Below, one piece after another: positions 50,980-60,993 of a stretch of 64,000 bases of DNA. Position 1 is the stretch's first letter. The number at the start of each line of letters is the position of its first letter. The notes beneath the pieces were generated by a model. The model was not told the origin of the DNA and ran no database searches. It saw only the letters and a list, made by a program, of their open reading frames with translations. The DNA is from Gilliamella sp. ESL0405. Its GTDB lineage: Bacteria; Pseudomonadota; Gammaproteobacteria; Enterobacterales; Orbaceae. The DNA lies in the NCBI RefSeq assembly GCF_019469205.1, contig NZ_CP048265.1:930001-994000 (forward strand). Reading direction: 5' to 3'. Both the position numbers and the translations under genes were made by a program.

Positions 50980-52398
50980 TTAAAAAAATATCAGATGATT
51001 AACGATAAACACTGGTATTAAAATCGCCACTGACCACTTCATATAACCGAAAAAGCCGGGCATGGCGATGTTGTTTTGGCTGGCTATGTTTTTCACCATA
51101 AAATTAGGGGCATTGCCAATATAGCTCAGTGCGCCCATAAATACTGATCCCATTGATATGGCTAACAGCGTGTTTGTCAGCGTGGTCATTAACATTGGTG
51201 CATCGCCGCCGGCTAGGTTGAAAAAGACCAAATAAGTCGGCGCATTATCTAAAAAGCCGGAAAGCAACCCGGTAAACCAAAAATACATTCCATTTATTGG
51301 CTCGCCTTGTGACGTATTGACCAGCGAAACCAGTGAAGCTAAAGCGCCGTTATTGCCTGCCCGTAAAATAGCCAGCATCGGAACGATAGTGATAAAAATG
51401 CCGATAAATAATTTTGCCACTTCAATCAGTGGATCCCAATTAAACTCATTACCCGCTCGCACCTGCTTTGGCGTGATGCGGATTGAAATAAGGGTAATAA
51501 CAATAAAGAATAGATCCCGTATTAAGTTGGACAGTGTGATATGGGCACCTAAAATTGTAAAACTGATAGACGATTGCCAGATGCCCGAAACCAATACATT
51601 AGCAATAATCGCCACTAATAACAGCAAATTATTTATGCCATAAACTTTCGTTGGCTCTTTGCTTTTAGCGGTCATCGTTGTTGCTAACTTGCCATATTGC
51701 CGGCAAAAATAGTGGCGATCAATCATATAATAAATCGCTAATAATATTGCCGTAGTTAGCCATACCGGCAGTAACATATGTTGTACTGTCCAACTAAAGC
51801 TTACGCCTTTTAAAAAACCAATAAATAACGGCGGATCGCCTAATGGCGTTAATCCGCCGCCAATGTTTGCCACTAGAAAGATAAAAAAGATAATGGTATG
51901 AACGGTATATTGGCGCTCTCGATTGGCTCGAATTAAAGGACGGATCATTAACATGGCCGCCCCAGTTGTACCCATGATCGACGCTAGCAAAGTGCCCAGC
52001 GCCAATAAGCCAACATTGAATTTAGGGGTACTTTTCATCGGGCTTTTAACTAAAATACCACCGGACACGGTAAACAGTGCCAGCAGTAACAAAATAAACG
52101 GAATATACTCTTCTAATATGGCATGAGCGGTTAAGTAAATCGTTGATTGTAGACCGAATGAAAACAGTGCGGAAACTAAAAATAGCAACGTCCAACCGCA
52201 AATAATTTTACCATAATGGTGATGCCATAATTGCGGTAAAAAAAGTGGCATTAAAGCAATCGACAACAAAATACCAATAAACGGCACGCCCCAAAATAAC
52301 GACAAACTATCGCCATTAAATTGTGCCGCATAAAGATCAAATGGCATAAACAGTAATAACATAATTGGTAACAAGGAGCGGTAAATAGGCTTTTTCAT
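50980..52398 (-). CDS. Sodium:proton antiporter / CitMHS-type transporter
   Basis: A 472-residue inner-membrane protein of the ion-transporter superfamily (ArsB/NhaD/CitMHS_2 group). An N-terminal signal-like helix (1-24, ending LYAA) precedes about 11 helices. ANIGGGLTPLGDPPLFIGFLKGV is the conserved re-entrant loop, and its mirror GLLSGFLDNAPTYLVFFNLAGG is in the second half. Such proteins are annotated as Na+/H+ antiporters; the transported ion is not proven. It is a single gene; the tandem repeat array lies immediately upstream of its 5' end. Confidence 0.82.
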   Translation of the reverse strand: MKKPIYRSLLPIMLLLFMPFDLYAAQFNGDSLSLFWGVPFIGILLSIALMPLFLPQLWHHHYGKIICGWTLLFLVSALFSFGLQSTIYLTAHAILEEYIPFILLLLALFTVSGGILVKSPMKSTPKFNVGLLALGTLLASIMGTTGAAMLMIRPLIRANRERQYTVHTIIFFIFLVANIGGGLTPLGDPPLFIGFLKGVSFSWTVQHMLLPVWLTTAILLAIYYMIDRHYFCRQYGKLATTMTAKSKEPTKVYGINNLLLLVAIIANVLVSGIWQSSISFTILGAHITLSNLIRDLFFIVITLISIRITPKQVRAGNEFNWDPLIEVAKLFIGIFITIVPMLAILRAGNNGALASLVSLVNTSQGEPINGMYFWFTGLLSGFLDNAPTYLVFFNLAGGDAPMLMTTLTNTLLAISMGSVFMGALSYIGNAPNFMVKNIASQNNIAMPGFFGYMKWSVAILIPVFIVNHLIFF

Positions 52399-52649: not shown

Positions 52650-54206
52650 TTTTTATACTAAAACACCTATATTTTCTGAAACTTCTTGACAAGATTTACC
52701 AACGATAATTTAAAGTTTCTTACTTGATTGCCTAAACTACTTTCGCTTTTGCTGGCTTAATTCAAACAAATTGTTAGCTTAGGTTGGCGGGTATTTTTTT
52801 GCTAAAACGTAGGTATTTTCTGAAACTTCTTGGCAAGATTTATTTGCAACAAGTTAATTATCTTGCTTGATTGGCTAAACAGCTTTCACCTTTGCTAGTT
52901 TAATTCAAACAAGTTGTTAGCTTAGGTTGGCGGGTATTTTTTTGCTAAAACGTAGGTATTTTCTGAAACTTCTTGATAAGATTAACCAACGACAATTTAA
53001 AGTTTCTTACTTGATTGCCTAAACTACTTTCGCCTTTGCTAGCTTACTTCAAGTAAATTGTTCGCTTGGGCTGGTGAGCATTCTTTATACTGAAACGCCT
53101 ATATTTTCTGAAACTTCTTGACAAGATTTATCAACGGCAATTTAAAGTTTCTTGCATGATTGCTTAAACTGCTTTCACCTTTGTTAGTTTAATTCAAACA
53201 AGTTGTTCGGTTAGGTTGGCGGGTGTTTTTTGCTAAAACGTGGGTGTTTTCTGAAACTTCTTGACAAGATTTACCAACGATAATTTAAAGTTTCTTACTT
53301 GATTGCCTAAACTGTTTTCACCTTTGTTAGTTTAATTCAAACAAGTCATTAGTTTAGGTTGGCGGGTATTTTTTTGCTAAAACGTAGGTATTTTCTGAAA
53401 CTTCTTGGCAAGATTTATTTGCAACAAGTTAATTATCTTGCTTGATTGGCTAAACAGCTTTCACCTTTGCTAGTTTAATTCAAACAAGTTGTTAGCTTAG
53501 GTTGGCGGGTATTTTTTGCTAAAACGTGGGTGTTTTCTGAAACTTCTTGACAAGATTTATCAACGACAATTTAAAGTTTCTTGCTTGATTGCTTAAACTA
53601 CTTTCATCTTTGCTAGCTTACTTCAAGCAAATTGTTTGCTTAGGCTGGTAAGTATTCTTTATAATGAAACACCTATATTTTCTGAAACTTCTTGACAAGA
53701 TTTGCCAACGACAATTTAAAGTTTCTTACTTGATTGCCTAAACTGCTTTCGCCTTTGTTAGTTTAATTCAAACAAGTTGTTTACTTAGGTTGGCGGGTAT
53801 TCTTTTTACTAAAACGTGGGTGTTTTCTGAAACTTCTTGACAAGATTTATCAGCAACAAGTTAATTTTCTTGCTTGATTGCCTAAACTGCTTTCGCCATT
53901 GTTAGTTTTATTCAAACAAGTTGTTCGGTTAGGTTGGCGGGTGTTTTTTGCTAAAACGTGGGTGTTTTCTGAAACTTCTTGACAAGATTTATCAACGACA
54001 ATTTAAAGTTTCTTACTTGATTGCCTAAACTACTTTCGCCTTTGTTAGTTTAATTCAAACAAGTCATTAGTTTAGGTTGGCGGGTGTTTTTTTGCTAAAA
54101 CGTGGGTGTTTTCTGAAACTTCTTGACAAGATTAACCAACGACAATTTAAAGTTTCTTACTTGATTGCCTAAACTACTTTCGCCTTTGCTAGCTTACTTC
54201 AAGCAA
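52650..54206. repeat. Tandem array of a ~144-bp hairpin-bearing unit, 11 copies
   Basis: The core TTTTCTGAAACTTCTTG occurs at 52672, 52816, 52959, 53104, 53247, 53391, 53533, 53678, 53823, 53965 and 54109, spaced 142-145 bp; one copy has GCAAG for GACAAG. Each unit runs on through an AAAGTTTC block, CTTGATTG-CTAAAC, a TTCAA/CAAG block, a TTAGGTTGGCGGGT block and CTAAAACG. The last copy is cut off after TTACTTCAAGCAA. No frame of 60 codons exists in the array. Units carry inverted repeats, for example 53971-53977 with 54006-54012, and 54015-54032 with 54046-54064. The array lies between the antiporter promoter side and the 3' end of the AraC gene. Confidence 0.97.
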
Positions 54207-54330
54207 GAACATTGCTTCGATTGGTTGCTGAACAATTGTGATAAGTGTCAATACCAACAAGTTAAAACCCAGCTTAACTATTTAGTAGGATACCGGCGAA
54301 CGTAGCGAACTAGCGAAGGTAAAAAGATGA
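54207..54330. other. Right flank of the repeat array
   Basis: About 120 bp between the last repeat and the AraC stop codon. It contains a small triplication GCGAAC-GTA-GCGAAC-TA-GCGAAG (54294-54316). No terminator-like stem was found for the AraC gene. Confidence 0.4.
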
Positions 54331-55197
54331 CTATTTTTGCAATAATTTGCTGTGATATTGGCGTCGGTATTCGGTTGGTGAGCGTTCGGTCTGTTTTCGG
54401 AAAATTCGGCAAAAATAGTTACTGTCTTTAAATCCCGATGCTAAAGCGACCTCTTTGATATTGAGATCATACTCTTTAAGCAGCGATTTAGCATATTCTA
54501 ATCGAATATAGTTAAGATATTCATTCAATCCCATTTTTCCTTCCCGTTGAAATAAGTGAGATAGATAGTTGGGCGAAATATAAAATAAGTTTGCCAGCAC
54601 ATCACGGCTGATATCTTCGCGAAAATGGCTATCAATATAGCTTCGAATCGCTTGAAATAAACTGGTTGTTTTGGAGCTGGTTTTTACATCGGCATTGAGT
54701 AAATCTAATGTATCGCTCAGTAAGCTTTGAATCAGAAAATAGGCGGTTTGATTTTGTACAGATGGTTGATTATGCCAGGTTAGCTCTGCCAGTGATTGCA
54801 GGATAAAAGTGCCGATGCGAGGGCCTCGTCTGGGCAGGGTAATTTGGCTATAAGGCACTGCATCGCTACCGTCCCAACGGGTTAAACTCAGGCAAATTTG
54901 TTGTTTATCATACAAAATACTTAAGCTGGTGCAGGCACTGGTCTTTAACGGTTTATACCAACTATGTGCGGTAATATAGAGCAGATCGTCAGTCGATAAG
55001 GTTTTTTCAATTCTATTGCCGTCATTATCTGCCCACTGTATCAAAAGTTTGCCCGCTAATACGATCTCAATTTTCGGCACTTCGGTTTGGTAAGCGTGTA
55101 AAGGTTTCGCTTGCGCTTTATTGGCAAAGTAGCGATGTTTGATCTGCTGTGCGCAATTGACATAATCAGCTAATATTTGATTGATATCTTTCTTCAT
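54331..55197 (-). CDS. AraC-family transcriptional regulator beside fsa
   Basis: A 288-residue AraC/XylS protein with a divergent sensor part (about 1-170) and a C-terminal double helix-turn-helix (about 190-285: RDVLANLFYISPNYLSHLFQREGKMGLNEYLNYIRLEYAKSLL, ALASGFKDSNYFCRIFRKQTERSPTEYR). The open frame reaches a TTG at 55221; the ATG at 55197 is chosen although neither has a good ribosome binding site. It is divergent from fsa and probably controls it. It is not RhaS/RhaR-like; the ligand is unknown. Its 3' end abuts the repeat array flank. Confidence 0.85.
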   Translation of the reverse strand: MKKDINQILADYVNCAQQIKHRYFANKAQAKPLHAYQTEVPKIEIVLAGKLLIQWADNDGNRIEKTLSTDDLLYITAHSWYKPLKTSACTSLSILYDKQQICLSLTRWDGSDAVPYSQITLPRRGPRIGTFILQSLAELTWHNQPSVQNQTAYFLIQSLLSDTLDLLNADVKTSSKTTSLFQAIRSYIDSHFREDISRDVLANLFYISPNYLSHLFQREGKMGLNEYLNYIRLEYAKSLLKEYDLNIKEVALASGFKDSNYFCRIFRKQTERSPTEYRRQYHSKLLQK

Positions 55198-55315
55198 ATG
55201 GCTAAACCGTAAATGAATCAAGCAATGAATAATGACAATTATATAATTTTGTTATCTTGATTAAAAACGATAAAAAACGATTTTCATTGGCGCTATTTTA
55301 CCGTTTAATTTATTG

Positions 55316-60789: not shown

Positions 60790-60800
60790 TGTTTATTCCG

Positions 60801-60842
60801 TTTTATACTAAAACGTTAGGTAAATCTGAAACATCTTGTCAA
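60801..60842. repeat. Lone degenerate copy of the array's leading edge
   Basis: TTTTATACTAAAAC at 60801-60814 equals the left edge of the 52.6-kb array (52651-52664). After an 11-base mismatched stretch of equal length, CTGAAACATCTTGTCAA continues the repeat core with two substitutions, in register and without a gap. It lies in the ilvY-prfC intergenic region, 6.6 kb from the array. Confidence 0.55.
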
Positions 60843-60993
60843 CACAGTGATGCTAATGGATGATTTTCTCGCAATGCAATTATTATGCATAGATAGCGTA
60901 ATAAGGCAAATAAGATAAACAACTTAAATAGCAATGTATAGCGATACCTGTTAAAATAGCCGATTATTTTTGTTGGTTGACACAGTAAACTTT

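Follow-up and report, generated by a model that had tools for sequence, protein, structure and literature searches.

An eleven-unit tandem array of Gilliamella sp. ESL0405 joins copies of a dispersed ~43-bp intergenic core to a spacer peculiar to the array

The window, the 64,000-nucleotide stretch of Gilliamella sp. ESL0405 DNA that was analysed, contains at positions 52650–54207 an array of 11 head-to-tail units of 142–145 bp, without a frame of 60 codons, in which each unit is composed of a ~43-bp core and a spacer peculiar to this array. About 250 copies of the core are found in the same genome. The array is probably a local amplification of this Gilliamella-specific dispersed element, which would serve both as the site for a putative DNA-binding protein and as a hotspot of tandem duplication. 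A sequence-only reading had described the eleven 142–145-bp units and their lack of a 60-codon frame, a description borne out by Tandem Repeats Finder (TRF), the core positions, and a check of the open reading frames. It had taken the ~143-bp unit to be the element, which is instead resolved into a dispersed ~43-bp core and a locus-specific spacer. Its assignment of the array as non-coding and intergenic, neither CRISPR nor REP, is upheld by comparison with those repeat classes. The features of the window are as follows.

52650..54207, plus strand: tandem array of 11 units of 142–145 bp, the last truncated, each a core and a spacer
52650..52693, plus strand: core 1, 44 bp, where the array begins
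52794..52837, plus strand: core 2
52937..52980, plus strand: core 3
53082..53125, plus strand: core 4
53225..53268, plus strand: core 5
53369..53412, plus strand: core 6
53511..53554, plus strand: core 7
53656..53699, plus strand: core 8
53801..53844, plus strand: core 9
53943..53986, plus strand: core 10
54087..54130, plus strand: core 11
54131..54207, plus strand: last spacer, truncated, array end
50980..52398, minus strand: antiporter-like gene adjoining the array (name from the sequence-only reading; no NCBIfam family matched)
54331..55221, minus strand: AraC-type regulator gene adjoining the array (resembles several AraC-family models, all below cut-off)
60800..60847, plus strand: degenerate core between a LysR-type gene and prfC (names assigned by eye from the proteins; weight-matrix score 14.5)

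The TRF row for the array spans 52670–54207 with a period of 143, 10.7 copies, and 84% matches, the step between successive core starts is 142–145 bp, and the longest stop-to-stop frame wholly within the array is 50 codons (53850–54002, minus strand). The units follow a higher-order 4+4+3 pattern, in which units 2 and 6, units 3, 7, and 11, and units 4 and 8 are alike, and TRF reports additional periods of 287, 432, and 575. This pattern is the mark of block duplication. The spacer occurs at 11 places in its own genome, all of them in the window array, and has no match in the 34 other Gilliamella genomes searched. Positions 52650–53080 of the window, comprising three units, were matched by none of 72,556 plasmid records and none of 50,697 phage records, collections from which records close to the source were possibly excluded, and a plasmid or phage origin of the array was rejected on this ground.

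The core consists of TTTWTRCTNAAAC, a variable centre of 7–8 bp, and TTTCTGAAASTTYTTGWCAAG; in the favoured explanation, the two arms flanking this centre are TTTWTRCTNAAAC on the left and TTYCTGAAASTTYTTGWCAAG on the right. Core copies vary mainly at the same few positions, and within this genome TTTCTG is almost invariant among the cores. The first 301 bp of the array have 113 matches in the genome (2,809,609 bp, one contig), and matches elsewhere than in the array extend over roughly the initial 40–70 bp of the unit, with a maximum of 91 bp. A 37-bp core pattern with up to two mismatches has 249 matches in the whole genome and none in the control, and a 24-bp pattern with up to three mismatches has 139 matches, as opposed to none for the reversed pattern, which excludes chance as the source of the repeat. 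Further counts refer to a set of 587,347 bp, a part of all loci, composed of the window and 47 stretches around the core matches listed; apart from the 64-kb window, this DNA was picked for its cores. Within the set, a weight matrix finds 197 cores above 10 bits, 195 of which exceed 20 bits, and the reversed sequence contains no core above 20 bits. The 195 cores make up 55 loci, 23 of them with a single core. Most cores are intergenic, with a few overlapping the ends of long open reading frames as called by a simple script.

Arrays in this genome have the form core(spacer-core)n. In the 587-kb set, 19 simple arrays of 2–11 cores are found, including the window array, which holds the most cores; the 18 others, the further arrays that the sequence-only reading had proposed looking for, have periods and spacers of their own. 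Spacers in the simple arrays are 64–243 bp long. The spacer aligns in register with its own locus's flanking DNA on the right in 11 of the 19 arrays, compared with 36 of 342 foreign pairs (permutation p <5e-5), and on the left in six of 19, compared with 37 of 342 (permutation p ~0.01); the L011 spacer is an obvious copy of flanking DNA. Because many spacers are thus in register with the flanks of their own locus, the arrays are tandem duplications around a core. Neighbouring cores within 300 bp are on the same strand in 107 cases out of 108 and on opposite strands in one. Arrays of their own are also observed in relatives: at the RidA site, G011 has an array with a ~290-bp unit that includes the 3′ end of RidA and the core (L176), which differs from the array of G000 there, and small arrays elsewhere comprise four matches spaced 184–185 bp apart in G001 and three matches spaced 198 bp apart in G003. 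Array formation at cores is therefore recurrent. TRF rows with a period of at least 50 that lack a core are, in the 587-kb set, CRISPR arrays (period 60, with one row at 120) and one two-copy repeat; such rates do not extend to the genome as a whole, since the set was picked for cores. The two-copy repeat, the sole non-CRISPR case, is a core-free tandem repeat of 222 bp at 1235363–1235802 (L030). Apart from the array, TRF reports a single row in the 64-kb window, a 20-bp repeat.

Conservation of the core was followed at two sites, RidA and prfC, each examined in 30 genomes of the 34 and 35 matched, respectively. A core within six mismatches is present in 16 of 30 genomes at the RidA site and in 15 of 30 at the prfC site. 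At RidA, identity across 96 divergent pairs is 0.81 for the gene, 0.86 for the arms, 0.37 for the left 40 nt, and 0.64 for the right 40 nt, where a terminator-like hairpin lies to the right of the core; at prfC, 54 pairs give 0.83 for the gene, 0.83 for the arms, and 0.355 and 0.352 for the left and right flanks, the arm values being inflated at both sites by the choice of sites for motif similarity (up to six mismatches of 35). The RidA values recur when rechecked with the orthologous core of this genome (arms 0.858, left 0.366, right 0.633) and when this genome is left out (arms 0.862, left 0.374, right 0.673). Conservation of the core arms equals that of the neighbouring gene, and most of the intergenic DNA on either side is no more alike than random sequence. 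Within the window array, identity is 0.877 for cores and 0.846 for spacers, and cores are more conserved than spacers in 10 of 14 arrays, a difference that is not clear. Because array cores vary almost as much as spacers do, constraint is shown for single sites and not for each copy in an array.

The species also have dialects that differ at the same core positions. At the RidA site, this genome has TTTTCTG, G006, G007, G020, and G024 have TTTCCTG, G012, G017, G019, and G023 have TTACCTG, and G011 has TTAACCTG. All genomes that carry the core at the RidA or prfC site have at least 15 copies genome-wide, and those with five copies or fewer have no core within six mismatches at either site. Genomes with at least 15 copies and no core within six mismatches are G001 (seven mismatches), G018 (nine), G009, G022, and G033 at RidA, and G002, G018, and G034 at prfC. 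An apparent relic of the left arm is found at prfC in G005, G030, and G031.

One narrow core pattern, run as an exact scan over 84,980 species genomes, gave 10 stretches, all from Gilliamella, and a less strict pattern, written in the relatives' dialect, matched none of 25 non-Gilliamella genomes. Within Gilliamella, compared at one genome per species, two core patterns with different centre lengths have 0–105 matches per genome and 250 in the genome described here; many genomes contain tens of cores and several almost none. The near-coreless genomes include G004, G005, G008, G014, G015, G016, G021, G025, and G032. In a tree of 27 genomes built from two genes, the near-coreless genomes are distributed over three separate clades plus G010, the tree being limited by some weak branches and by gene transfer (G034 is placed beside G014). 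Of 70 core loci from relatives, a count in which L151 of this genome is left out and some sites are counted twice, 25 map into the 587-kb set. A core of this genome lies within 500 bp for 15 of these (11 distinct sites), and within 25 bp for 13 of the 15; choosing DNA for its cores favours orthology matches, but hardly to a precision of 25 bp. Five others, contributed by four genomes, coincide with the degenerate core at window position 60800, whose orthologues in many relatives are intact single cores, and the remaining five have no counterpart. Several single cores in relatives correspond to arrays in this genome: L040 and L078 to a four-core array, L077 and L081 to a seven-core array, and L050 to a two-core array. 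For the window array itself, a core is found at the antiporter locus in four of 29 relatives, one core each, and flanks of 1.5 kb around the 29 antiporter loci yielded neither the AraC nor the aldolase gene; for this reason, an ancestral single core at this locus is inferred from other loci. A selfish satellite, proposed in the sequence-only reading, is a poor fit for a core that stands alone at orthologous sites and stays conserved at them.

The favoured explanation, in which a dispersed recognition site is locally amplified, may proceed as follows. The core arms would be bound by one candidate sequence-specific DNA-binding protein; that a single trans-acting partner is involved is suggested by the constraint, the dialects, and the existence of lineages in which nearly the entire set is missing. 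The site is probably architectural, or otherwise tolerant of position, rather than a promoter element, since no orientation preference is seen for genes or for replication. By hand count, 14 loci are on the plus strand and 11 on the minus strand below 1.42 Mb, where skew is mostly positive, compared with 18 and 12 above, which is no bias, and the flanking genes of 52 clusters are oriented (−,−) in 21 cases, (+,+) in 13, (−,+) in 10, and (+,−) in eight, without clear bias relative to a background of 93, 75, 56, and 37 of 261 gaps, the genes having been predicted by a simple ORF-calling script. Once two cores stand in tandem, unequal recombination or slippage could expand and homogenise the array, a step that the 4+4+3 block pattern fits. 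Near-coreless lineages may have lost the one trans-acting partner, after which the core sites would decay. The protein landing pad and the length-variable locus, both raised in the sequence-only reading, are each supported indirectly. A bolder version, which we regard as possible though rather doubtful, is that of an undescribed, genome-wide DNA recognition system comprising one trans-acting protein and a two-armed ~43-bp site with species dialects, entirely lost from several lineages, whose sites would be hotspots that duplicate neighbouring DNA, including small CRISPR arrays, and carry copies elsewhere.

CRISPR arrays in this genome have type I-F-like repeats with a 60-bp period. Seven stretches (L010, L020, L022, L034, L035, L036, and L061; for example 1707363–1710249) contain 20 clusters of type I-F-like repeats, two of which are a single repeat, together with 18 leader copies. 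A core or core pair lies within 400 bp of 18 of the 20 clusters, mostly at a near-fixed distance and on the side opposite the leader. A GC-rich block, present in 37 copies, some at CRISPR-free loci, shares repeated units of about 450–1000 bp with the CRISPR clusters, and 35 core pairs spaced at 50–52 bp are associated with this block. A link of the cores to the CRISPR system itself was rejected. The I-F cas1 model scores above cut-off in near-coreless G005, G014, G015, G016, G026, and G032 and does not in core-rich G001, G011, G013, G023, G029, and G034; because cas1 is thus detected in near-coreless genomes and falls short of the cut-off in several core-rich ones, the cores do not depend on the type I-F system.

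In an alternative explanation, the core is a recombination site: core-flanked cassettes, including the GC-rich CRISPR block, would insert where a single core already stands and accumulate there, in a manner loosely comparable to integron cassettes or to Campbell-type insertion via 44 bp of homology. In agreement with such insertion, 12 of the 19 simple arrays look bounded by cores, in that neither flank beyond the array aligns with the spacer any better than the best-matching foreign flank; the GC-rich block and core pairs are found at many loci, often with unique flanks directly outside the outer cores; and two arms with a variable centre would, by analogy, resemble the site of a recombinase. 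Many simple-array spacers are, however, local in origin, the window spacer is found nowhere else, composite arrays are not all bounded by cores (in one, a block at 1648688 extends beyond the outermost core, which is the first, at 1648752), and ordinary homologous recombination would suffice. This alternative is considered unlikely. Spread of the core by a transposase as a miniature mobile element, MITE- or REP-like, with the arrays as a by-product, would account for the high copy number, the mostly intergenic placement, and the species-specific abundance. It is at odds with the many orthologous sites shared across species whose genes are ~80% identical, with the arms kept, and with the lack in this genome of a RAYT transposase (PF01797), which is found in one of 35 genomes in the genus (G019), so that a REP/RAYT reading was rejected. 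DNA folds of five cores (z −0.26 to 1.01) are no better than those of shuffles, a further point against a mobile element and the ground on which the core as a hairpin was rejected; mobility of this kind is accordingly judged quite improbable.

Ordinary variable-number tandem repeats (VNTRs), duplicated by slippage with the core as a passive passenger, would show the copy divergence and block pattern observed here, which are typical of slippage or unequal exchange. The core-free long-period rows of the 587-kb set are nevertheless CRISPR arrays bar one, which ties the core to array formation within DNA that was, the window apart, picked for cores; a passive role is considered very improbable. 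A transcribed repeat RNA, such as a small-RNA sponge or structured repeat, had also been proposed in the sequence-only reading, and the shared strand of all but one of the neighbouring core pairs would suit it. The fold z-scores in six unit/strand tests are −1.2 to 0.9, none of the 20 consensus pairs shows compensatory change, Rfam gives no match at gathering score in the window and eight core-rich loci, and promoter-like sites number three, compared with a shuffled mean of 4.6. These results led to the rejection of a structured RNA and leave the transcribed repeat with hardly any credence. Terminator-like sites number one, compared with 1.5 in shuffles, and a promoter or terminator reading was likewise rejected for want of an excess.

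The core belongs among interspersed intergenic direct repeats, and among those compared, in accounts seen in part, it is STAR-like but longer and site-conserved between species. In the portion of one report available (PMC3532100), STAR elements (Staphylococcus aureus repeat) are described as a 14-bp GC-rich motif, T(G/A/T)TGTTG(G/T)GGCCC(C/A), of unknown function in intergenic DNA, with loci that are mostly solitary and sometimes form tracts, spacers of ~40–44 bp at the locus described that are distinct between loci and alike within them, variable copy number, abundance that differs between species independent of relatedness, and loci that are not common to different species. The core is similar in being an interspersed intergenic direct repeat, single or arrayed, with locus-specific spacers. 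It differs in its length of ~43 bp and its AT-rich, unrelated sequence, in its simple-array spacers of 64–243 bp, in the many loci common to species, and in its species dialects, none being described for STAR in that portion. REP/BIME elements, as far as the available part of their description goes (PMC2817692), likewise exceed 100 copies per genome and form clusters; in contrast, the core has no stem-loop, is arranged head-to-tail rather than alternating, and occurs in a genome without a RAYT. Similar to a CRISPR, the window array is composed of direct repeats and spacers, but its spacers are homologous copies (0.846 identity) and its period is 142–145 bp. Unlike the different gene cassettes of an integron array, these spacers are non-coding copies. 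DNA uptake sequences are genus-specific words with species dialects, no strand preference, and a thousand or more copies. The core shares with them the restriction to a genus, the dialects, and the lack of strand preference, and differs in having tens to 250 copies, a length of ~43 bp, and a mostly intergenic location.

Among the titles and abstract openings listed for Gilliamella and Orbaceae, with subscription papers mostly outside this coverage, none describes the core repeat. Intergenic repeat families of bacteria are in many cases mobile, restricted to one species, or without a known purpose, and the core can be traced site by site through a genus as single, decayed, near-absent, or independently arrayed at one site. 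Two testable questions follow: which protein conserves so long a non-coding site, and why such sites duplicate in tandem. If copy number varies between strains, the arrays could provide markers for bee-gut strains.

A separate observation concerns L041 of G004 and L018 of this genome (2762057), where 3 kb containing a single core are 98% identical, the antiporter genes of the two species being 71% identical; judged from the sequences, this looks like a recent gene transfer that carried a core.
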